Positions 43,182 through 54,283 of a stretch of 64,000 nt of DNA are shown here, one piece after another; within the stretch, counting starts at the first letter, position 1, and the number at the start of each line of letters is the position of its first letter. Both the position numbers and the translations under genes were made by a program. The stretch is from NCBI GenBank assembly GCA_029961745.1, contig CP124680.1, positions 2,542,001 through 2,606,000 of the forward strand, written 5' to 3'. The notes under the pieces are model-generated. The model was not told where the DNA came from and did no database searches. It worked only from the letters and a program-made list of their open reading frames with translations. Source of the DNA: Nocardioides sp. L-11A (lineage in GTDB: Bacteria; Actinomycetota; Actinomycetes; Propionibacteriales; Nocardioidaceae).

Positions 43182-43586
43182 TCAGGTGTCGGCACCCAGA
43201 GCGGCGCGCCAGGCGTCCGGCCAGGCGGCCGCCGTCCCGGCGACGGGGTCGAGGTGCACCGTGACGTAGCGACCCCGCGCGACCCGGACCGCTGGCGTGC
43301 CCGCGGGCCCGCCCCACACCTCGAAGCCGAGGGTGAGGGAGGAGCGGCCCACCCGCTCCACCCGCACCGTCGCGGCGACCTCGTCGCCGAAGCGCAGCGG
43401 GGCCTCGAAGTCGACCTCGTAGCGGACCCGTGGCGCCACGGGGAAGTAGCCGTCGAGGCCGAGGTCGCGGACGAGCGTGGCCTCCGCGGACTCGACGTAC
43501 CGGACGATCGCGGTGTTGTGGTGGATGCCGGCGGCGTCGGTGTCGATCCACTCCACCCGGCCGTGGTGGGTGCCGCTCACCGTCAT
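43182..43586 (-). CDS. 4HBT-type acyl-CoA thioesterase (PaaI/YbgC-like)
   Basis: A 134-aa hot-dog thioesterase. VEWIDTDAAGIHHNTAIVRY carries the D-x-D-A-x-G-I-x-H-x-x catalytic motif of 4-hydroxybenzoyl-CoA thioesterases. Size is normal. The ATG at 43586 overlaps the end of the 2-aminobenzoyl-CoA monooxygenase/reductase gene by 4 nt. That suggests it releases CoA from a product or dead-end intermediate of that enzyme. The gap to paaX is 27 nt, so paaX is probably in the same transcript. Confidence 0.85.
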   Translation of the reverse strand: MTVSGTHHGRVEWIDTDAAGIHHNTAIVRYVESAEATLVRDLGLDGYFPVAPRVRYEVDFEAPLRFGDEVAATVRVERVGRSSLTLGFEVWGGPAGTPAVRVARGRYVTVHLDPVAGTAAAWPDAWRAALGADT

Positions 43587-45937
43587 GGCGTCCAGCGCAC
43601 GTGCACGAGATCGTCGCCGCCGTCGCGCAGCAGCTCGAGCCGGGGCGGGATCTTGTCGGTGCGCGACGTCGGCGGCCGGCGGCGCCCGGCCTTCCACGGG
43701 TCGGGCCACCGCACGGCCGGTCCCTGGTAGTCCTGCTCGACCGCGGCGTGCAGCGTCCACTGCGGGTCGTAGAGGTGCGTGCGCCCCAGCGCGCACAGGT
43801 CGGCGCGCCCGGCGAGCAGGATCGAGTTGACGTCGTCGTACGACGAGATGGCACCGACCGCGATCACGGCGACCCCGGCGGGGGCCGCGACCTCGTGCCG
43901 GATCCGGTCGGCGAAGGGGGTCTGGTAGGACCGGCCGAACGCCGGCCGCTCGTCCTTGCTGATCTGCCCGGACGACACGTCGATGGCGGCCGCGCCGTGC
44001 TCGACGAACGCACGGGCGATCTCGACCGCGTCGTCGTCGGTGTTGCCGTCGGGCAGCCAGTCGTGCGCGGAGATCCGCACGGTGACCGGGATCGACTCCG
44101 GTACGACGGCGCGCACGGCGTCGAAGACCTCCAGCGGGAAGCGCAGCCGGTTCGCCAGCGAGCCGCCGTACTCGTCGGTGCGGCGGTTGGAGACCGGCGA
44201 GAGGAAGGACGAGAGCAGATAGCCGTGGGCGGCGTGCACCTCGACCAGGTCGAAGCCCGCCTCGACGGCCCGGCGCGCGGTGGCGACGAAGTCGGCCACC
44301 ACCTGGTCGAGGTCGGCCCGGGTCGCCTCCCGCGGCAGGTGGCAGTCGGGGCCGTACGCGAGCGTGGAGGGGCCGATGACCTCCCAGTTGCCCTCGTCGA
44401 GCGGCTCGTCCATGCCCTCCCACATCAGCTTCGTCGAGCCCTTGCGGCCGGAATGGCCGATCTGGACGCCGATCCGGGCGTGCGACCGGTCGTGCACGAA
44501 GCGGGTGATCCGCGCCCACGCGTCGCGCTGCTCGTCGGTCCACAGGCCCGGGCAGCCGGGGGTGATGCGGCCCTCCGGCGACACGCAGGTCATCTCGGTC
44601 ATGACCAGCCCCGCGCCGCCCATCGCCTTGCTGCCGAGGTGGACCAGGTGGAACTCGCCGGGCACCCCGTCGACCGCGGAGTACATGTCCATGGGAGAGA
44701 GGATGATCCGGTTGGGCAGCTCCAGCGGGCCGATCCGGGCGGGCTGGAACATCGCGGGCGCGCCGTCCCCGGCGCCGTACCGCTCGGAGAAGGCACGCTC
44801 CACGACGCCGGCGAACCCGGGGTCGCGCTCCTTGAGGTTGTCGAAGGTGATCCGGCGCGAGCGGGTGAGCAGGTTGAACACGAAGGTCGTGGGGTCCTGG
44901 TCGGCGTACCGGCCGATGTCCTCGAACCACTCCAGGGACGCCTGGGCCGCGCGCTGGGTCGACTCCACGACCGGCTTGCGCTCGGCCTGGTAGGCCTCCA
45001 GCGCGGCGGCGACGCTCGGGTGCTCGTGGAGGCAGGCGGCCAGCGCGAGGGCGTCCTCCATGGCGAGCTTGGTGCCCGAGCCGATCGAGAAGTGCGCGGT
45101 GTGCGCCGCGTCGCCGAGCAGAACGACGTTCTCGTGGTGCCAGCGCTCGTTGCGCACGGTGTGGAAGCTGAGCCACTTGGAGTTGTTGGTGAGGATCTCG
45201 TGGCCCTGGAGCTCGCGCGCGAAGATCTCCCGGATCCGCGCGACGGCATGCTCGTCGGACACGCCCGGCGCGAACACTTCGTGCTCGGTGGCGTCGAAGC
45301 CGGCGCGGCGCCACACGTCCTCGTGCATCTCGACGATGAACGTCGAGCCCTGGTCGGAGTAGGGGTAGCCGTGGATCTGCATGGTGCCCCACTCGGTGTT
45401 CTTCACGAAGAACTGGAACGCCTCGAAGACCAGGTCGGTGCCGAGCCAGATGTACTTGTTGTGCCGGCGGTCGAGCGTCGGCCCGAAGACGTCGGCGTGC
45501 TTGGTGCGGATCGTGGAGTTGAGCCCGTCGGCGGCCAGCACCAGGTCGTACGACGCCCGCAGCTCGTCGACGTCGGGCGCCTCGGTGCGGTAGTGCACGG
45601 TGACGTCGAGCTCGGCGACCCGCTCCTGCATGATCTGGAGCAGCTCCTTGCGGCTCATCGCCGCGAAGCCCTGCCCGCCGATCGTGTACGACGTCCCGTC
45701 GATGTCCACGTCGATGTCGGTCCAGCGCGCGAAGCGCGCCTCCATCCGGTCGTGCACGACCTGGTCGGCGCCCTCGATGCTGCCGAGGGTCTCGTCGGAG
45801 AACACGACGCCGAAGCCGAAGGTGTCCTCGGGGGCGTTGCGCTCCCAGACCGTCACCTCGTGGGCCGGGTCGAGCTGCTTCATCAGTGCGGCGAAGTAGA
45901 GCCCCCCGGGCCCGCCGCCGGCGATGGCGATCTTCAT
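43583..45937 (-). CDS. 2-aminobenzoyl-CoA monooxygenase/reductase (salicylyl-CoA 5-hydroxylase-like fusion)
   Basis: A 784-aa fusion. Residues 1-390 form a flavin monooxygenase (MKIAIAGGGPGGLYFAALM; GDAAHTAHFSIGSG at 275-288; LAMEDALALA). Residues 396-784 form an old-yellow-enzyme reductase (PARIGPLELPNRIILSPM, HAAHGYLLSSFLSP, LGRTHLYDP). This architecture is that of anthraniloyl-CoA monooxygenase/reductase, which hydroxylates and then reduces the ring of 2-aminobenzoyl-CoA. Database names often read salicylyl-CoA 5-hydroxylase for the first half. The CoA ligase for the substrate starts its stop 1 nt upstream, and a thioesterase overlaps downstream. Confidence 0.92.
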   Translation of the reverse strand: MKIAIAGGGPGGLYFAALMKQLDPAHEVTVWERNAPEDTFGFGVVFSDETLGSIEGADQVVHDRMEARFARWTDIDVDIDGTSYTIGGQGFAAMSRKELLQIMQERVAELDVTVHYRTEAPDVDELRASYDLVLAADGLNSTIRTKHADVFGPTLDRRHNKYIWLGTDLVFEAFQFFVKNTEWGTMQIHGYPYSDQGSTFIVEMHEDVWRRAGFDATEHEVFAPGVSDEHAVARIREIFARELQGHEILTNNSKWLSFHTVRNERWHHENVVLLGDAAHTAHFSIGSGTKLAMEDALALAACLHEHPSVAAALEAYQAERKPVVESTQRAAQASLEWFEDIGRYADQDPTTFVFNLLTRSRRITFDNLKERDPGFAGVVERAFSERYGAGDGAPAMFQPARIGPLELPNRIILSPMDMYSAVDGVPGEFHLVHLGSKAMGGAGLVMTEMTCVSPEGRITPGCPGLWTDEQRDAWARITRFVHDRSHARIGVQIGHSGRKGSTKLMWEGMDEPLDEGNWEVIGPSTLAYGPDCHLPREATRADLDQVVADFVATARRAVEAGFDLVEVHAAHGYLLSSFLSPVSNRRTDEYGGSLANRLRFPLEVFDAVRAVVPESIPVTVRISAHDWLPDGNTDDDAVEIARAFVEHGAAAIDVSSGQISKDERPAFGRSYQTPFADRIRHEVAAPAGVAVIAVGAISSYDDVNSILLAGRADLCALGRTHLYDPQWTLHAAVEQDYQGPAVRWPDPWKAGRRRPPTSRTDKIPPRLELLRDGGDDLVHVRWTP

Positions 45938-45938
45938 G

Positions 45939-47582
45939 TCAGGACTCCGATCCGAGGAGCTCGCGCAGCTTGAAGTGCTGCAGCTTTCCGCTGGCGTTGC
46001 GGGGCAGTGACGCGACGAAGCGCACGTCCCGTGGGTACTTGAAGGGAGCCAGGAGGCTCTTGACGTGGTCCTGGAGCTCGACGGCCTTGGCCGCATCCCC
46101 GGCCACGCCGTCGCGCAGGACGACGAACGCGCACACCACCGCGCCTCGGTCGTGGTCGGGACGCCCGACGACCGCGGTCTCGACGACGTCCGGGTGCGAC
46201 TCGAGGGCGATCTCCACCTCCGGGCCGCCGATGTTGTAGCCCGAGGAGACGATCATGTTGTCGGTGCGCGCGCGATAGGAGAAGTAGCCGTCCTCGTCGC
46301 GGACGAAGGTGTCGCCGGTGACGTTCCAGCCGTCGACGACGTAGTCGGCCTGCCGCCGGTCGTCGAGGTAGCGGCAGCCGACGGGACCGATCACGGCGAG
46401 CCGGCCCTCGACGCCGGGTCCCAGCTCGTTGCCGTCGAGGTCGAGGATCGCCGCGCGGAAGCCGGGCACCGGGCGCCCGACGGTGTCGGGCCGGATGTCG
46501 GCGCCCGCCGCGGAGATGAAGATGTGCAGCATCTCGGTGCCGCCGATGCCGTCGACCACGTCGAGGCCGGTGGCGGCGCGCAGCTCCTCGCGGGTCGTGC
46601 GGGGCATGTGCTCGCCGGCGGTGACGGCGACGCGCAGCCCGGCGAGCCGGTCGGCGCGCTCGGAGCGGAGGATCTTCTTGTACGCCGTCGGCGCGGTCGC
46701 GAGCACGGTGACGCCGTGGTCGGCGACCAGGTCGGCCAGCTCGGTCGGCGCCGCCGCCTCGGTGAGCAGTGCGCAGGCGCCGGCCCGGAGGGGGAAGACC
46801 ACGAGCATGCCGAGTCCGAAGGTGAAGGCCAACGGCGCCGAGCAGGCGACGAGATCGTCGGGGCCGAGGCCGAGGACGGCGCGCCCGAAGGTGTTGTCGA
46901 TCGAGAGCACGTCGCGATGGAAGTGGGTGGTGATCTTGGGGACGCCCGTGGTGCCGGAGGTAGGCGCGAAGAGGGCCACGTCGTCGGCCGCGGTGTCGAC
47001 GGCGGTGAAGGTGGTCGGCTTGCCCGCGCACCGGTGCACGAGGTCGTCGAGATCGTCGGGGGCGTCGCTGCCGTAGGTGACGACGGTCAGCGCGGGCGCG
47101 GCAGTATCCCGCACGGCGTACACGTCGGTGGCGACGCGATGGTCGACCAGCGCGACGGCCGGCCGGGTCCGTTCCACGATGGGCGTCAGCTCGGCGGCGC
47201 GCAGCGCCGCCATGGTGGTCACCACGATGCCGCCGGCCTTGAGCACGCCGAGCCAGGCGGCCACGGTCCACGGGTTGTTGGGGGAGCGCAGCAGCACTCG
47301 GTTGCCGCTGACCAGGCCGAGGTCGTCGACCAGCACGTGCGCGATCTGGTTGGCCCGGGCCAGCAGCTCGCCGTAGGTCCACACGGTGCCGTCGGGGGTC
47401 CGCAGCGCGGGCCGGTCGGGCGTCCGGGCCGCGGGGACATCGATCAGCTCGGTCGCCGCGTTCAGCCGCGGCGGGTAGGCCAGCTGGGGCGTCGTGAACT
47501 CGAGCACCGGCCACTGGGCCCGCGGCGGCAGGTGGTCGCGGGCGAAGGTGTCGGCGTACCCCGACGGGGTCAGCGGGCTCAC
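45939..47582 (-). CDS. 2-aminobenzoate--CoA ligase-like protein
   Basis: A 547-aa aryl-CoA ligase of the ANL superfamily. The P-loop is LFAPTSGTTGVPKITTHFHR, with VDGIGGTEMLHIF as A5, DGWNVTGDTFVRDEDGYF as A7 and SSGYNIGGPEVE as A8. The A10 lysine is in LPRNASGKLQHFKL. The sequence order and PTSGTTGxPK with THFHRD are typical of benzoate and 2-aminobenzoate ligases (BclA group). It would make anthraniloyl-CoA for the monooxygenase/reductase encoded 1 nt downstream. The GTG at 47582 overlaps the TesB gene by 4 nt. Salicylate or another 2-substituted benzoate cannot be excluded. Confidence 0.88.
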   Translation of the reverse strand: MSPLTPSGYADTFARDHLPPRAQWPVLEFTTPQLAYPPRLNAATELIDVPAARTPDRPALRTPDGTVWTYGELLARANQIAHVLVDDLGLVSGNRVLLRSPNNPWTVAAWLGVLKAGGIVVTTMAALRAAELTPIVERTRPAVALVDHRVATDVYAVRDTAAPALTVVTYGSDAPDDLDDLVHRCAGKPTTFTAVDTAADDVALFAPTSGTTGVPKITTHFHRDVLSIDNTFGRAVLGLGPDDLVACSAPLAFTFGLGMLVVFPLRAGACALLTEAAAPTELADLVADHGVTVLATAPTAYKKILRSERADRLAGLRVAVTAGEHMPRTTREELRAATGLDVVDGIGGTEMLHIFISAAGADIRPDTVGRPVPGFRAAILDLDGNELGPGVEGRLAVIGPVGCRYLDDRRQADYVVDGWNVTGDTFVRDEDGYFSYRARTDNMIVSSGYNIGGPEVEIALESHPDVVETAVVGRPDHDRGAVVCAFVVLRDGVAGDAAKAVELQDHVKSLLAPFKYPRDVRFVASLPRNASGKLQHFKLRELLGSES

Positions 47583-48490
47583 GACGGCACCGCCGCGCGG
47601 ATCATGCCCTCCTGGACGACGCTCGCGACGAGGGTGCCGTCGGTGGTGAAGAACCGGCCGACCCCCGTGCCTCGGCCGTCCTCGACCGAGAGGGCCTCCT
47701 GCGCGTAGAGCAGCCAGTCGTCCATCCGGACCGGCCGGTGGAACCACATCGCGTGGTCGAGGCTCGCCGTGACCAGGCCCTCGTCGGCCCAGGCCAGGCC
47801 GAGCACCCGCAGCGCCGGCTCGAGGATCGTGTAGTCGCAGACGTAGGCCAGCGCCGCGGTGTCGCGCTGCGCGGGCGTCAGTCCCTCGACGTCGCGCAGT
47901 GCGTCGTAGGGGCGCACCCAGAGGGCCTGGTGCGGCGTGCGCTCGCCGTCGACGGTCAGGTAGACCGGGCCCGGCACGTGGCGCATGTCGAAGCTGCGGC
48001 CGTGCTGCCAGTAGTCCTTGGAGGTCGGCGTCATGGTGCCGCCCGAGCGGTCGGCGAGGTACGTCGCCGAGGTCGGCAGCGCCTCCGGGCCGGGCAGCCC
48101 CGCGGGCATCCGCGCCTGGAAGGAGCCGCCCGGCTCGCCGGCCGCGAAGCTCGCCAGGCACACGTAGACCGGCTTGCCGTTCTGGAAGGCACGCACCTGC
48201 CGGGTGCTGTAGCCGCGGCCGTCGCGGAGCACCTCGACCTCGTAGCGGACCTCCGCGCCGATGTCGACGGGACGCATGAAGTAGGAGTGCATCGAGTGCA
48301 TGCTCTTGCCGCCGGGACCACCGGGCACGGTGCGGGACGCGGCGACGAGTGCCTGGGCCACCATGTCGCCGCCGTACGCCTTCGGCCACGGGCAGGGTTG
48401 CGTCGTCGCCGTGAACGCGTGGTCGAAGACCTCGGCGGCGCACTCCTCGAGCGTGACGGCGTCGGTGAAGGTCTGCGAGGTCGGGTTCAC
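47579..48490 (-). CDS. Acyl-CoA thioesterase II (TesB-like)
   Basis: A 303-aa double hot-dog thioesterase, normal length for TesB. SMHSYFMRPVDIGAEVRYEV lies in the first hot-dog, and VRMDDWLLYAQEALSVEDGRG, of which WLLYAQEA is typical, in the second. Catalytic Asp is probably in TASLDHAMWFHRP. It would hydrolyse aliphatic acyl-CoAs made in the lower pathway. The GTG at 48490 and the ligase GTG both use GTGA overlaps, tying three genes (cupin, TesB, ligase) into one coupled operon. Confidence 0.88.
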   Translation of the reverse strand: MNPTSQTFTDAVTLEECAAEVFDHAFTATTQPCPWPKAYGGDMVAQALVAASRTVPGGPGGKSMHSMHSYFMRPVDIGAEVRYEVEVLRDGRGYSTRQVRAFQNGKPVYVCLASFAAGEPGGSFQARMPAGLPGPEALPTSATYLADRSGGTMTPTSKDYWQHGRSFDMRHVPGPVYLTVDGERTPHQALWVRPYDALRDVEGLTPAQRDTAALAYVCDYTILEPALRVLGLAWADEGLVTASLDHAMWFHRPVRMDDWLLYAQEALSVEDGRGTGVGRFFTTDGTLVASVVQEGMIRAAVPS

Positions 48491-48972
48491 GGGCGGTCCG
48501 TCCAGTCGGGAAGCTCACCGTCGGTGACCTGGGCGAGGTTGACGACGATGTTCTCGGGGGTGCGGGTGGTCATCCAGGTGAGCGGGTTGTTGCGGTCGAG
48601 GTTGCACTCGACGTGGGGCATGAACGGCGGCACGAACACCCAGTCGCCCTCGGACATGTCGAGGTAGTCCTCGAACTTCTCGCCGAAGTAGATCCGGGCC
48701 CGGCCGGACAGCACGTAGCCGCCGGTCTCCGCCTCGCCGTGGTGGTGGGGCACCGAGCGGTAGCCGGCGAGGTTGTGCACCTTGCCGAACCAGATCCGCG
48801 TCGCCGGCGTGTGCTGGATGCTGACGCCCGAGACCCGGGTGGCGCCCTCGCTCTGGCCGGTCAGGTCCGGCTCGAAGCCGGCCCGGGTGACGACGGGGAC
48901 GACGATGCCGCTCTCGTCGGCGTAGACCGAGTTGTCCCCGATCAGCTCGTACTTGCTGAGGTCTGGCTCCAT
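48487..48972 (-). CDS. Single-domain cupin protein
   Basis: A 161-aa cupin. The first motif is seen in PHHHGEAETGGYVLSGRARIYFG (H-x-H-x-E, G), the second in GDWVFVPPFMPHVECNLD (P-x-H). Metal binding and a dioxygenase, isomerase or epimerase role are all possible. At 161 aa it is about half the size of gentisate 1,2-dioxygenase, which argues against the salicylate-gentisate route. TAGGAGCCC upstream of the ATG at 48972 is a good ribosome site. It overlaps the TesB gene start by 4 nt and follows the FAH-family gene. Confidence 0.82.
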   Translation of the reverse strand: MEPDLSKYELIGDNSVYADESGIVVPVVTRAGFEPDLTGQSEGATRVSGVSIQHTPATRIWFGKVHNLAGYRSVPHHHGEAETGGYVLSGRARIYFGEKFEDYLDMSEGDWVFVPPFMPHVECNLDRNNPLTWMTTRTPENIVVNLAQVTDGELPDWTDRP

Positions 48973-48980
48973 GAGGGCTC

Positions 48981-49847
48981 CTAGGTGAGGGCGGTGGGGG
49001 CGGGGGCGAGGCGGACGGTGTTGCGCAGGGTGCCGATGCCGGAGACCTCGGTCTCCAGGATGTCCCCGTCGGCGAGGAAGCGCTGTGGGTCGCGGGCCAC
49101 GCCGACGCCGCCGGGCGTGCCGGTGAGCACCAGGTCGCCCGGGCGCAGGGTGGCGAACGTGGAGACGTAGGCGAGCAGGTCCGCGGCGTCGAAGACGAGG
49201 GTCGCGGTGCTGTCGCGCTGCACCTCCTCGTCGTTGACCCGGCAGACCACGTCGACGCCGGCGGTCGGGTCGAGCGCGTCCGGGGTGACCAGGACCGGGC
49301 CGAGGGGCGTGGAGGCGTCCCAGGCCTTGCCCTGCAGCCACTGGAGGGTGCGGTACTGCCAGTCGCGGGCGGAGAGGTCGTTGGCGACCGTGTAGCCCGC
49401 GATCGAGGCCAGCGCCTCGTCGCGACCGGCGCGACGCAGGGTCCGGCCGACGACCACCGCGAGCTCGGCCTCCCAGTCCCACTGCACGCCGGCGGGGAGC
49501 AGCAGGTCGTCGGTGGGTCCGGTCAGGGTGTCGGCGAACTTCGCGAAGAGCGTCGGGTACGCCGGCAGCTCGCGCCCGGTCTCCGCGATGTGCTCGCCGT
49601 AGTTGAGTCCGCAGCAGACCACCTTGCCCGGCCGCGGCAGTGGCAGCACCGGGACGGCGTCCGGCACGACCGCGCCGGCCCGGTCGGCGAGCCGGGCGGG
49701 ATCCCAGCCACCCTCGGCGTCCGCGGCGGCGATCAGCGCCGAGAGGTCGGGGGCGGGCAGGGCGCGCCAGCGGCTGTCGGGGTCGTCCTGGTGCTGGACG
49801 GCGGCGGTCGTGCCCCCGTCGGGGGTCGTGACGCTCGCGAGCCGCAT
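48981..49847 (-). CDS. Fumarylacetoacetate hydrolase family protein
   Basis: A 288-aa FAH-family C-C hydrolase or decarboxylase. GKVVCCGLNYGEHIAETG, YPTLFAKFADTLTGP, then WDWEAELAVVVG give the metal-binding Glu positions. SARDWQYRTLQWLQGKAWD and LLTGTPGGVGVAR are family motifs, the second visible as TGTPGGVGV. It would split a ring-opened dicarbonyl acid of the aromatic pathway. I use the ATG at 49847, which has GAAGGAGCAC upstream. An upstream frame extension to 49919 lies in promoter-like DNA. It is the first gene of the leftward aromatic operon, facing ridA. Confidence 0.88.
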   Translation of the reverse strand: MRLASVTTPDGGTTAAVQHQDDPDSRWRALPAPDLSALIAAADAEGGWDPARLADRAGAVVPDAVPVLPLPRPGKVVCCGLNYGEHIAETGRELPAYPTLFAKFADTLTGPTDDLLLPAGVQWDWEAELAVVVGRTLRRAGRDEALASIAGYTVANDLSARDWQYRTLQWLQGKAWDASTPLGPVLVTPDALDPTAGVDVVCRVNDEEVQRDSTATLVFDAADLLAYVSTFATLRPGDLVLTGTPGGVGVARDPQRFLADGDILETEVSGIGTLRNTVRLAPAPTALT

Positions 49848-49918
49848 CCGGTGCTCCTTCTGCTGAGGTGGGCGTGTGCTGAGATGGCCGAACGGATATT
49901 TCATTCTGCACACGTTCA

Positions 49919-49947
49919 TTGCTGTGATGTCAATAGATTGCTACGGT
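49919..49947 (+). promoter_or_regulatory. Promoter of ridA, in an AT-rich divergent region
   Basis: TTGCTG (49919-49924), 17-nt spacer, TACGGT (49942-49947), 43 nt before the RidA start. On the other strand TTGACA (plus-strand TGTCAA 49928-49933) could be the -35 of the FAH-family operon. The 143-nt region is locally AT-rich, and arms CGTGTGC (49873-49879) and GCACACG (49908-49914) form an inverted repeat that could bind the AraC or PaaX regulator. Confidence 0.5.
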
Positions 49948-49990
49948 GGCGATCGCCCGAAGTTCCCTGTGACTCCTCGAGGAGACCGCG

Positions 49991-50422
49991 ATGCCGACCG
50001 ACCTCATGCCGCTGTCCGTCAACCCCGCCGCCCTGCCGGAGCCGAGTGGCTTCTCGCACGGCACGCTGAGCGGCAACACGCTCTACCTCGGCGGTCAGAC
50101 GGCGCTCGACAAGGAGATGCGGATCGTCCCCGGCGGCATCGTCGAGCAGTTCCGCCAGGCGTTCGGCAACGTGCTCGCGACCGTGCGCGAGGCCGGCGGC
50201 ATCCCGGAGGACCTGGTGAGCATCACCATCTTCCTCACCGACATCCCCGACTATCAGGCCCACGGGCGTGAGATCGGCCGGGCGTGGCGCGAGCTCGCCG
50301 GCCCGGTCTACCCGGCGATGGCCGGCATCGGCACGACCGCGCTGTGGCAGCCGGAGGCGCTGATCGAGATCATGGGCGTCGCGGTCATCCCCGACGAGCG
50401 GCTGGTTCGCCCCAGGGGCTGA
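49991..50422 (+). CDS. RidA/YjgF family enamine/imine deaminase
   Basis: A 143-aa RidA-family protein. Recognisable features are EPSGFSHGTLSGNTLYLGGQTALD near the N-terminus, seen as GNTLYLGGQ, then QAFGNVLATVREAGGIPEDL and the C-terminal QPEALIEIMGVAVI with the conserved Glu. RidA proteins hydrolyse enamines and imines. The product of 2-aminobenzoyl-CoA monooxygenase/reductase is itself an enamine, so this protein could remove its nitrogen as ammonia. That link is inference from position. GAGGAGACC precedes the ATG. The AraC gene follows after 96 nt. Confidence 0.88.
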   Translation: MPTDLMPLSVNPAALPEPSGFSHGTLSGNTLYLGGQTALDKEMRIVPGGIVEQFRQAFGNVLATVREAGGIPEDLVSITIFLTDIPDYQAHGREIGRAWRELAGPVYPAMAGIGTTALWQPEALIEIMGVAVIPDERLVRPRG

Positions 50423-50518
50423 GCCTCGCATTCGTGCCGTGCGACGACCGTGGATCTGTTGACATACCGCGGTTCCGGGTGCGGCAATAGGGCAGCAGCG
50501 ACCCACAGGAGCGTTCCG

Positions 50519-51484
50519 ATGGCCACGACCCTTCTCTCCCGGCACCGCCAGATCGCCACCGTCGAGCTGGAGCAGGCCCGGGACGAGGTCGCGCGCCGGT
50601 TCTGCGCGCACCGGCTCACGCTGACCCGGGCCTCCGGACGGCTGGACATGCTCCACAACGCTGCGGCGATCGGGCGCGACGTGACCCTCAACTACCTGCG
50701 CTACGGCGACGAGGTCCGGATCACGCCGGGACGGTTCGACGACTTCTACCTGGTCCAGGTGCCGCTGGCCGGCACCGCCCGGGTCAGGGTCGGGGAGCGG
50801 GTGGTGGCCTCGGACCGCACGCACGCCTCGCTGGGCTCGCCGACCGAGCCGGTCGACATGCTCTGGAGCGACGGCTGCGAGCAGCTGCTCGTCTATCTGC
50901 GGCGCCAGGCGGTCGAGGAGCTGGCCGGGGAGGGGCAGGGCTGCGCGGCCCCGGTGGTCTTCGACCCGATGATGGACCTGGAGGCCCCGTCCCTGCGGGC
51001 GTGGCTGCGGCTGGTCCACCTCGCCCTCGACGACATCGAGGCCGGGGGAGCGCTGTTCCGCTCGCCGCTGGCCGCCACCCACTTCGAGCAGACGCTCATC
51101 TCCGGTCTGCTGGCCGCCCAGCCCAACAGCAGCGGCACGATCGCACCGGCTCCGGTTCCGGGCTCCCGGGTGGTGCGCGCCGTGGTCCAGTTGATCGAGT
51201 CCGAGCCGGAGCGCGCGTGGAGGCTGGCCGAGCTCGCCGGGCACGTCGGCGTCTCGGCACGCACCCTGCAGGAGGCCTTCCAGCGCGAGCTGGGCACCAG
51301 CCCGCTCGAGCAGCTGCGGCGCACTCGCATGGAGCGGGTGCGCCGCGACCTCGTCGACGCCGACCCGAGCACCACCTCGGTCACGGACGTCGCGGCCCGC
51401 TGGGGGTTCTTCCACCTCGGGCGTTTCTCACAGGCCTACCGCGCGGCCTACCAGGAGCTGCCCTCGCAGACCCTCGCCGGCTAG
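50519..51484 (+). CDS. AraC family transcriptional regulator
   Basis: A 321-aa AraC-type regulator. The N-terminal half is the AraC-binding-like (cupin-6) effector domain, and the C-terminal 100 residues hold two helix-turn-helices. The first reads WRLAELAGHVGVSARTLQEAFQREL and the second TSVTDVAARWGFFHLGRFSQAYR, seen here by AGHVGVSARTLQ and VAARWGFFHLGRFS. Domain layout resembles activators of aromatic catabolism such as those of the XylS/FeaR kind. It probably activates the divergent aromatic operon. CAGGAGCG is a proper ribosome site for the ATG at 50519. Its stop overlaps the convergent membrane-protein gene by 4 nt. Confidence 0.88.
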   Translation: MATTLLSRHRQIATVELEQARDEVARRFCAHRLTLTRASGRLDMLHNAAAIGRDVTLNYLRYGDEVRITPGRFDDFYLVQVPLAGTARVRVGERVVASDRTHASLGSPTEPVDMLWSDGCEQLLVYLRRQAVEELAGEGQGCAAPVVFDPMMDLEAPSLRAWLRLVHLALDDIEAGGALFRSPLAATHFEQTLISGLLAAQPNSSGTIAPAPVPGSRVVRAVVQLIESEPERAWRLAELAGHVGVSARTLQEAFQRELGTSPLEQLRRTRMERVRRDLVDADPSTTSVTDVAARWGFFHLGRFSQAYRAAYQELPSQTLAG

Positions 51485-52032
51485 CGCGACTCGACCGGGA
51501 CCCGCCGGGTCAGGCCCAGTCGGTAGAGCCCGTAGCCGGTCGCCAGCAGCAGGCCCAGCAGCACCGTGATCCGCTGGCCGAACTCCGCGGGCCGGCCCGC
51601 GTCGAGCGCGCCGTAGACGGCGAGATCGCCCCCGACGTACCAGAGCAGGTACGCCGCCGGCGGGACCAGCCATGACAAGGGGTGCCACCACCGCACCTCG
51701 TGGTGGTTGCGCCCCACGAGCACGAAGTCGAGCACGACCAGGGTCGGGGTGACGACATGCTCGAGCAGCGACCAGGGCTGGTCGAGGTTGCCGTTCTGCA
51801 TCGGCACGTAGGCCACGCCGACGAGCACCATCACGGTGGTGAGGGCGCCGCGCAGCCAGGGGGAGCGGGGCTCGCGGAGGGCGAGGCCGAGGAAGCACAC
51901 GGCCACCGTGAGGTTGGCGAGCTGCGAGAGGGCGGTCCACCACACGTCGTACTCCCGGGCGGCGAGGACGACTCCCGACGCCGCGCAGGTCGCGACGAGG
52001 AGGCGCCAGAGCGCCACGGGGACCGTGTTCAC
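51481..52032 (-). CDS. Pr6Pr-like six-helix membrane protein
   Basis: A 183-aa membrane protein with about six hydrophobic segments. It resembles the actinobacterial Pr6Pr family, related to the androgen-inducible FAR-17a/AIG1 proteins, because of LSQLANLTVAVCFLGLAL, SLLEHVVTPTLVVLDFVL and WWHPLSWLVPPAAYLLW, all recalled features of that family. Function is unknown. It stands alone: it converges on the AraC gene and is divergent from the DUF429-RelA/SpoT gene, with 73 nt between the starts. Confidence 0.75.
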   Translation of the reverse strand: MNTVPVALWRLLVATCAASGVVLAAREYDVWWTALSQLANLTVAVCFLGLALREPRSPWLRGALTTVMVLVGVAYVPMQNGNLDQPWSLLEHVVTPTLVVLDFVLVGRNHHEVRWWHPLSWLVPPAAYLLWYVGGDLAVYGALDAGRPAEFGQRITVLLGLLLATGYGLYRLGLTRRVPVESR

Positions 52033-52105: not shown

Positions 52106-53908
52106 ATGGGTGCGGACGGACAGGGCGACGTCGTCGAGCACTTCGTGGGGGTCGACCTCGCCTGGGGCGAGCGCCGGCCGACCGGTCTCGCCGTCGTCGA
52201 CGGTGAGGGGATGCTGCTGACCGTCGCGGCGGCGCAGACCGACGACGAGATCGCGACCGCCCTGGCGCCGTACGTCGAGGGGGCGTGCGTGGTCGCCATC
52301 GATGCGCCCATCGTGGTCGTCAACGCCACCGGCAACCGGCCGGCCGAGGCGGCTCTCAACAGGGACTTCGCACGCTTCGACGCGGGGGCGCACCCCGCCA
52401 ACACCGGGAAGCCGGAGTTCCGCGAGCAACCTCGCGCCGCGCGGGTCGCCGCCCGGCTCGGGCTCGACATCAACCCGCGATCGCGTCGGCCCCGGCGGGC
52501 GATCGAGGTCTATCCGCACCCGGCGACCGTCGCGCTGTTCCGGCTCGGTCGCACCCTGAAGTACAAGAACAAGCCCGGTCGCGACCTGGAGCAGCTGCGG
52601 GCCGAGCTGCTCGTCCTGCTCGGCCTGGTCGAGGGACTCGGCGCCGCTGCGCCGCCGTTGCACGTCGAGGGCCTGGCGGCGTGGACCGCGCTGCGCTCCG
52701 CCGGGGAGACGGCCACCCGCAAGAGCGAGCTGCGGGTCGTCGAGGACCAGGTCGACGCGGTCGTGTGCGCCTATGTCGCGCTGTTCGCCGAGCGACGCCC
52801 CGAGGACACCACGACCTACGGCGACCTCGAGACCGGCTATATCGTCACGCCCACACTGCCCGAGGGCCTCCTGCCGGCGCCGCGACCCGCGCGCGATCCC
52901 GCCGCGGCACCCGACATCGGCGCCGCCGTGCGCCGGTACGCCGAGCTGCAGCCCGCGCTGCGCGACGTGACCGACGGCTTCGTGCGGCTGGTGACCGCGA
53001 TCCTCGACGAGGCCGGCATCAACTACCTCACCGTGACCGGCCGGGCGAAGAGCGTCTCGTCCTTCGCCGCCAAGGCCGCTCGCACCCTGGGCGGCCGTCC
53101 CCTCTACACCGACCCGCTGCGCGAGATCACCGACCAGGTCGGCGTCCGGGTGATCACCTATGTGCAGAGCGACGTGCAGGCCGTGGTCGACCTCCTCGGC
53201 GACCAGGTCGTCGTCCACGACGACCGCGACATGGGCCAGGAGACCGCCAGCGAGGGACGCTTCGGGTACTCCAGTCGCCATCTCATCGTCGGCCTCGACC
53301 CCGCCCGCGCCGGCGACGACGAGACCGACCCGCTCCAGGGGCACCAGGCGGCGATCCAGATCCGCACCGTGCTGCAGCACGCGTGGGCGGAGTTCGAGCA
53401 CGACACCCGCTACAAGGGCGCCGTCCCCGCCGAGCACGTCCTCGAGCTCGACCGCCGGTTCACCCTCGCGGCGGGTCTCCTCGAGCTGGCCGACCGCGAG
53501 TTCTCCACGATCCGTGACCTGCTCCGCGACGGCCCGACGGAGGCCGACGACGACGAGCACGACGAGGGGGACGGCGACCCGCGGATGAGCCCGCGCGAGC
53601 TGGCCGCCTTCCTCGCCGGTCAGTACTCCGACGCCGGCTGGTCGCGCACCGACCACTACACCTGGATCTCCGCGCTGGTCCTCGAGCTCGGCATCACCTC
53701 CCTGGCCGCGCTCGGCGAGTCGCTGCGCTCGGTCGACGACGACGCCCTGCGCGAGCGGATGGGCTACCGCTACCCGCCGGGTGCGGTCCGCCGCCTCGAC
53801 GACGCCCTGCTGTGGGTCTACGGGGAGCGCTACCTCGAGCTGCACGGCAACGCCCACCGGGTGCCGGCCCTGCGGGCCCGGCTGGCGCGGATGCGCGCCG
53901 AGGACTGA
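52106..53908 (+). CDS. DUF429 - RelA/SpoT domain fusion protein
   Basis: A 600-aa fusion of two families. Residues 8-260 look like DUF429, a predicted RNase-H-fold nuclease domain: FVGVDLAWG with D17, VVAIDAPIVV with D67, EVYPHP and EDQVDAVVCAY with D217. Residues 275-440 are a RelA/SpoT nucleotidyltransferase domain: TGRAKSVSSFAAK, ITDQVGVRV with D343, FGYSSRH and QIRTVLQHAWAEFEHDTRYK, seen here as QIRT...HAWAEFEH. The residue where (p)ppGpp synthetases carry Glu before QIRT is Ala416, so synthetase activity is uncertain. The tail (about 495-600) is unassigned. It could be an alarmone enzyme, a stress sensor or a toxin-like defence protein. Confidence 0.85.
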   Translation: MGADGQGDVVEHFVGVDLAWGERRPTGLAVVDGEGMLLTVAAAQTDDEIATALAPYVEGACVVAIDAPIVVVNATGNRPAEAALNRDFARFDAGAHPANTGKPEFREQPRAARVAARLGLDINPRSRRPRRAIEVYPHPATVALFRLGRTLKYKNKPGRDLEQLRAELLVLLGLVEGLGAAAPPLHVEGLAAWTALRSAGETATRKSELRVVEDQVDAVVCAYVALFAERRPEDTTTYGDLETGYIVTPTLPEGLLPAPRPARDPAAAPDIGAAVRRYAELQPALRDVTDGFVRLVTAILDEAGINYLTVTGRAKSVSSFAAKAARTLGGRPLYTDPLREITDQVGVRVITYVQSDVQAVVDLLGDQVVVHDDRDMGQETASEGRFGYSSRHLIVGLDPARAGDDETDPLQGHQAAIQIRTVLQHAWAEFEHDTRYKGAVPAEHVLELDRRFTLAAGLLELADREFSTIRDLLRDGPTEADDDEHDEGDGDPRMSPRELAAFLAGQYSDAGWSRTDHYTWISALVLELGITSLAALGESLRSVDDDALRERMGYRYPPGAVRRLDDALLWVYGERYLELHGNAHRVPALRARLARMRAED

Positions 53909-53914
53909 TCCAGG

Positions 53915-54283
53915 CTAGGCGTCGGCGCCGAGCAGGTCCGCGAGGACCGCGGCCTGGCTCAGGGCGAGGTCCCGCGACGCGGTCATGAGCGTGAGGGGGC
54001 CGGCGGCCAGCAGCGCGCGCAGGCGGGCCAGGGCCGCGGCCTGCTCGCCTCCGCCGAGCTCGGCGCGGTAGCGGCGGACGAACTCGGCATGGCGGTCGGG
54101 GTCGTGGCCGTACCACCGACGCAGGTCCGTCGACGGCGCCACGTCGCGCAGCCACACGTCCCACGGGGCCGCTGCCTTGCTCTGCCCGCGCGGCCACAGG
54201 CGGTCGACCAGGACCGCGGTTCCGGTCGCCGGGCGCCCGTCGCGCACGTGGGCCACGCGGACGGCGGGATGCGCGGCGGCCAC
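53915..54283 (-). CDS. DUF488 family protein
   Basis: A 122-aa DUF488 protein. VLVDRLWPRGQSK and VWLRDVAPSTDLRRWYGHDP are the family's two conserved blocks, and the length is standard. The family is widespread and has no confirmed enzymatic role. It starts 8 nt before the acyltransferase stop on the same strand, and converges on the DUF429-RelA/SpoT gene with only 6 nt between the stops. Confidence 0.88.
   Translation of the reverse strand: MAAAHPAVRVAHVRDGRPATGTAVLVDRLWPRGQSKAAAPWDVWLRDVAPSTDLRRWYGHDPDRHAEFVRRYRAELGGGEQAAALARLRALLAAGPLTLMTASRDLALSQAAVLADLLGADA

Follow-up and report, generated by a model that had tools for sequence, protein, structure and literature searches.

Described fusions of DUF429 and RelA/SpoT domains

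Small alarmone synthetases (SAS) of the actRel group can carry an N-terminal DUF429 domain, as noted in 2011 for Mycobacterium gilvum, M. smegmatis and M. vanbaalenii (Atkinson 2011, PMC3153485), and a survey of RNase H-like proteins published in 2014 (PMC3985635) again lists DUF429 together with RelA/SpoT in actinobacteria. The subject of this work is a gene of the same layout in Nocardioides sp. L-11A, which lies in a window of 64,000 nucleotides (contig CP124680.1, positions 2,542,001 to 2,606,000; all positions below are those of the window unless a locus is named) within a single-contig chromosome of 5.68 Mb. Its 600-residue product is probably a Nocardioides-type orthologue of the mycobacterial protein RelZ and, like it, a dual-domain small alarmone synthetase. 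The orthology is judged from sequence and architecture and the folds from structure prediction, while the activities are those published for RelZ and would apply here by analogy. The architecture is known under the names actRel and RelZ, and the remaining question is the chemistry of a synthetase site from which a glutamate is missing.

RelZ of M. smegmatis (MS_RHII-RSD, MSMEG_5849) is credited with RNase HII activity in a review (PMC7591505), a statement repeated in PMC4429107 and PMC4300193, and R-loop cleavage is credited to it in a review as well. According to reviews it makes pGpp, ppGpp and pppGpp with an acceptor preference of GMP > GDP > GTP and is inhibited by pppGpp, and a citing paper describes it as 'catalytically active'. 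The stand-alone synthetase RelS of Corynebacterium glutamicum (cg2324) is active and Mg-dependent and deviates slightly from the ExQIRT motif; the same source cites an activity of MS_RHII-RSD that does not depend on Mg and questions whether the two proteins form one functional subgroup (Ruwe 2017, PMC5566576). In RelP of Staphylococcus aureus, Mg is held by Asp107 and Glu174 (PMC5794853).

A RelZ-type gene in Nocardioides

The gene occupies 52106..53908 on the forward strand, with an ATG at 52106. Translation gives 600 residues with zero internal stops, although homology to relatives mostly starts at about residue 10-12, which leaves the first residues of the protein unsure. Pfam places DUF429 at residues 15-231 (E 1.1e-28) and RelA_SpoT at residues 312-438 (E 7.4e-15; 53039..53419) in a single open reading frame (ORF), which is the order that marks the RelZ type and bears out the two domains assigned in an earlier note on this DNA. 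That note also knew of no described role for the fusion, a statement superseded by the published RelZ/MS_RHII-RSD of the same architecture, and it raised the possibility of an assembly or frame artefact, against which stand full-length fusions in independent assemblies and 148 fusion ORFs read from fetched loci (genomes present in two collections being counted twice).

Full-length homologues with 57-95% identity are found in Nocardioides, mycobacteria and other actinobacteria. Among the best 80 of 441 relatives the nearest named ones belong to Nocardioides: over residues 1-600 the homologue of Nocardioides sp. LHD-245 is 95% identical and that of N. carbamazepini 91%. The comparison with RelZ was made through fusions from a group of genomes (g5) taken as Mycobacterium on sequence likeness to mycobacteria. 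These share the N-terminal DUF429 and C-terminal actRel synthetase in a single chain and are 57-66% identical to the Nocardioides protein over nearly the full length.

The DUF429 half (residues 12-231, 52139..52798) is predicted to adopt an RNase H-like, RuvC-like fold with its conserved acids in the first and fourth strands. D17, E134, D214 and D217 are present in 122 of 122 fusions and D66 in 120 of them. The earlier note had named D17, E134 and D217 correctly; its D67 was off by one, the conserved Asp being D66, followed by Ala at position 67. Fold and acidic residues are shared with other DUF429 proteins (PF04250), which are placed in RNase H-like clade D with RuvC, RuvX and Ydc2 and differ in being mostly single-domain. 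DUF429 is a Pfam family distinct from RNase HII (PF01351): a Pfam scan of the protein to E 1 gives DUF429 and not PF01351, and the RNase HII of the same genome is a separate gene. By analogy with RelZ, the DUF429 half would most likely cleave the RNA strand of RNA-DNA hybrids or of R-loops.

The C-terminal part of about 110 residues (490-600, 53573..53905) is predicted with high confidence to be a domain of six helices. No solved structure clearly related to it was found. This domain is present in Glu-bearing relatives too, among them those of group g296 (presumed Corynebacterium). RelS of C. glutamicum is, like the Nocardioides protein, an actRel synthetase; it differs in standing alone without DUF429.

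Position 416

Comparison with solved synthetases aligns A416 (53351..53353) with the Glu of ExQIRT in YjbM and 2be3, two residues before the Gln, so that the replacement of this Glu by Ala, as the earlier note had read it, stands. This is the site of the catalytic, metal-binding Glu in other small alarmone synthetases, and the D343 and position 416 of the present protein can be equated, from alignment and spacing, with Asp107 and Glu174 of RelP. RelQ/YjbM and RelP/YwaC share the synthetase fold, the RxK motif, the Asp, the G-loop GY..H and QIRT with the Nocardioides protein, whereas they have the Glu and lack a nuclease half.

A tabulation of the aligned residue, which the earlier note had proposed, was made on 178 distinct rows besides the query, namely 122 fusions (the window's own copy included) and 56 stand-alone synthetases. 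The rows came from 42 of the 54 matches of the genus-level search, from the first 30 g5 matches with others brought in otherwise, and from the best 80 of 441 relatives; identical synthetase halves, ORFs below 60 bits, a broken match (L214) and DUF429-only ORFs were dropped before counting. In the fusions position 416 is Gln in 67, Ser in 43, Ala in 11 and Thr in one, and Glu in none. The stand-alone synthetases have Glu in 38, Ser in 16 and Gln in two. All 40 mycobacterial fusion loci compared carry Ser (8/8 from named mycobacteria and 32/32 from group g5; 33 distinct synthetase halves), in place of the Ala of the Nocardioides protein, and all 15 g296 sequences carry Glu, with cg2324 itself outside this count. 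The fusion, mycobacterial and g296 counts are independent of how the rows are sorted, while the Glu-bearing and Glu-less groups compared below at other columns are set by residue 416 itself.

Quick maximum-likelihood trees of 132 rows separate Glu from non-Glu by a single change. One branch sets 96 non-Glu rows apart, and the Nocardioides protein groups there with the mycobacterial fusions and not with the Glu-bearing stand-alone synthetases. Support is moderate, at 90, and at 79 with the trait column removed. On the same trees architecture requires six or seven changes and the identity of residue 416 ten or thirteen. A Glu-less position 416 thus looks like an old trait of the clade and not a peculiarity of the Nocardioides protein. 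The trees are silent on the direction of change; since synthetases outside the clade usually have Glu, the change is read as a loss, most simply a single one in the ancestor of the RelZ clade. Position 416 would then have varied between Gln, Ser, Ala and Thr, so that its side chain probably plays no part.

Because every one of the 40 mycobacterial fusion loci has Ser, M. smegmatis RelZ, for which they stand in, very probably lacks this Glu as well. The split between Glu-bearing and Glu-less proteins may also run along the line that Ruwe drew between RelS and MS_RHII-RSD, as far as it can be placed from relatives of the two proteins in lieu of their own sequences. The phrases 'catalytic glutamate' and 'catalytic Glu' were not met in the literature searched on small alarmone synthetases, actRel and RelZ, a search that left out the primary RelZ papers, and newness is not claimed.

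The rest of the synthetase site

Apart from the Glu, the features of small alarmone synthetases (RxK, Asp, G-loop Tyr and His, Q-x-R-T) are all present. R313, K315, S319, K323, D343, R348, G387, Y388, H392, Q418, R420, H425, W427, H432 and K437 are invariant in all 140 Glu-less rows, which argues against a decaying site. The R313-x-K315 motif (53042..53050) is equally invariant in 37/37 Glu-bearing rows, and D343 (53132..53134), taken as the equivalent of the RelP Mg ligand Asp107, is likewise kept, both as stated in the earlier note.

These residues bear on the alternative that the synthetase domain is a pseudoenzyme, which would bind ATP, guanine nucleotides or alarmones and thereby regulate the nuclease half while making no alarmone itself. 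The complete absence of Glu from the fusions and the ten or thirteen residue changes at position 416 over all tree rows would suit such a role, and the inhibition by pppGpp reported for RelZ makes nucleotide binding as a signal plausible. The invariance of D343 as the presumed remaining metal ligand does not suit it, nor does the reported synthesis of pGpp, ppGpp and pppGpp by RelZ, and in 18 distinct stand-alone synthetases without the Glu the ORF contains no nuclease half that could be regulated. This alternative, which the earlier note had raised in the form of alarmone binding without synthesis, is considered rather unlikely.

In the reading as an active RelZ-type enzyme, the RelA_SpoT half would most likely use ATP to pyrophosphorylate GMP, GDP or GTP at the 3'-OH. 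Catalysis would depend on D343, which is invariant, and on the Arg/Lys set, perhaps with a contribution from D373 (53222..53224), which is specific to the clade: it is Asp in 140/140 Glu-less and 2/37 Glu-bearing rows. R391 (140/140 vs 2/37) and D301 (139/140 vs 3/37) behave in the same manner. As the change at position 416 happened about once, the joint fixation of these three residues is inseparable from shared ancestry, and D373 is a candidate only for the role of a stand-in for the missing Glu. The Mg-independent activity cited for MS_RHII-RSD would fit a missing Mg ligand.

It can be proposed, tentatively, that the proteins of the RelZ clade form a separate type of alarmone synthetase, in which one of the two carboxylates that bind Mg in RelP was lost and pyrophosphate is transferred with the help of one conserved Asp plus the clade-specific D373, or with no bound Mg. 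If true, this would explain both the Mg-independence and the GMP preference reported for RelZ. The puzzle is a clade whose studied member is reported to be active and yet very probably lacks the Mg-binding residue of RelP, with a new Asp fixed nearby in the sequence. If alarmones are indeed made without the Glu, scans that call Glu-less RelA/SpoT domains dead would be wrong for the RelZ clade.

Several points weigh against the orthology and the activities attached to it. A rel relZ double mutant is not free of (p)ppGpp according to a review, and in another paper the role of RelZ is described as 'not certain'. The two domains of RelZ are also said in a review to be inactive once separated, which leaves the existence of 18 stand-alone Glu-less synthetases to be explained. 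The activities of RelZ are taken from reviews and citing papers, and the comparison relies on mycobacterial fusions in place of the sequence of M. smegmatis RelZ itself. Finally, the one-change branch loses support when the trait column is left out, and long outgroup branches leave the deep part of the tree unsure.

Distribution and genomic neighbourhood

At a threshold of E 1e-10, 33 of the 36 genomes in the same-genus group contain a match: the full fusion is present in 20, with an internal TAG in G403, and the other 13 have the synthetase half without a fused DUF429. In one of these 13 (genome G418, L198:3083-4875, minus strand) the halves lie side by side as two ORFs, a natural split of the fusion. 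Group g5 has matches in 161 of 198 sampled genomes at E 1e-30. At least 62 matches extend over almost the entire fusion, with an internal TGA in one of them; the remaining matches among those listed are DUF429 only, except one at a contig end. In the sample of the phylum, 19 of 396 genomes have a match at E 1e-20. At two mycobacterial loci (L104:7986-8846 and L124:630-1490) a DUF429-only ORF (287 codons, counted between stops) sits immediately upstream of the fusion gene, possibly through tandem duplication. Four loci from the same order (L211, L212, L213 and L215, group f77) contain a separate stand-alone synthetase that has the Glu and is 40-43% identical, and some of the f77 genomes with such a gene have a separate DUF429 gene too.

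The distribution also bears on the suggestion of the earlier note that the protein may use a new acceptor or serve in defence, that is, as a toxSAS-like or anti-phage effector which would transfer pyrophosphate to tRNA or adenine nucleotides, DUF429 being its partner nuclease. The PADLOC models PDC-S44 and PDC-S33, labelled as phage-defence candidates, match 66 of 66 fusions; this says no more than that the family has been entered as a candidate. No constant neighbour that could be an antitoxin gene was found, as no neighbour family occurs in more than 11 of the 80 named loci compared; without a recurring partner gene the toxin-antitoxin reading is unsupported. The wide presence in the genus and the alarmone synthesis published for the sole assayed fusion point away from it as well, and an effector of this kind is very improbable.

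The downstream neighbour (53915-54283, minus strand) matches the Pfam entry 'inactive DUF488-N3 subclade'; it occurs in two of the 80 loci and stands beside the fusion in only one of these (L040). To the left of the gene, the region 43583-52032 holds an ORF of 837 residues which by eye seems to join a monooxygenase-like part of the flavin adenine dinucleotide (FAD) type to an old-yellow-enzyme domain, together with genes for an FAA hydrolase, a RidA-like protein and an AraC regulator; these genes are perhaps an aromatic-degradation cluster.
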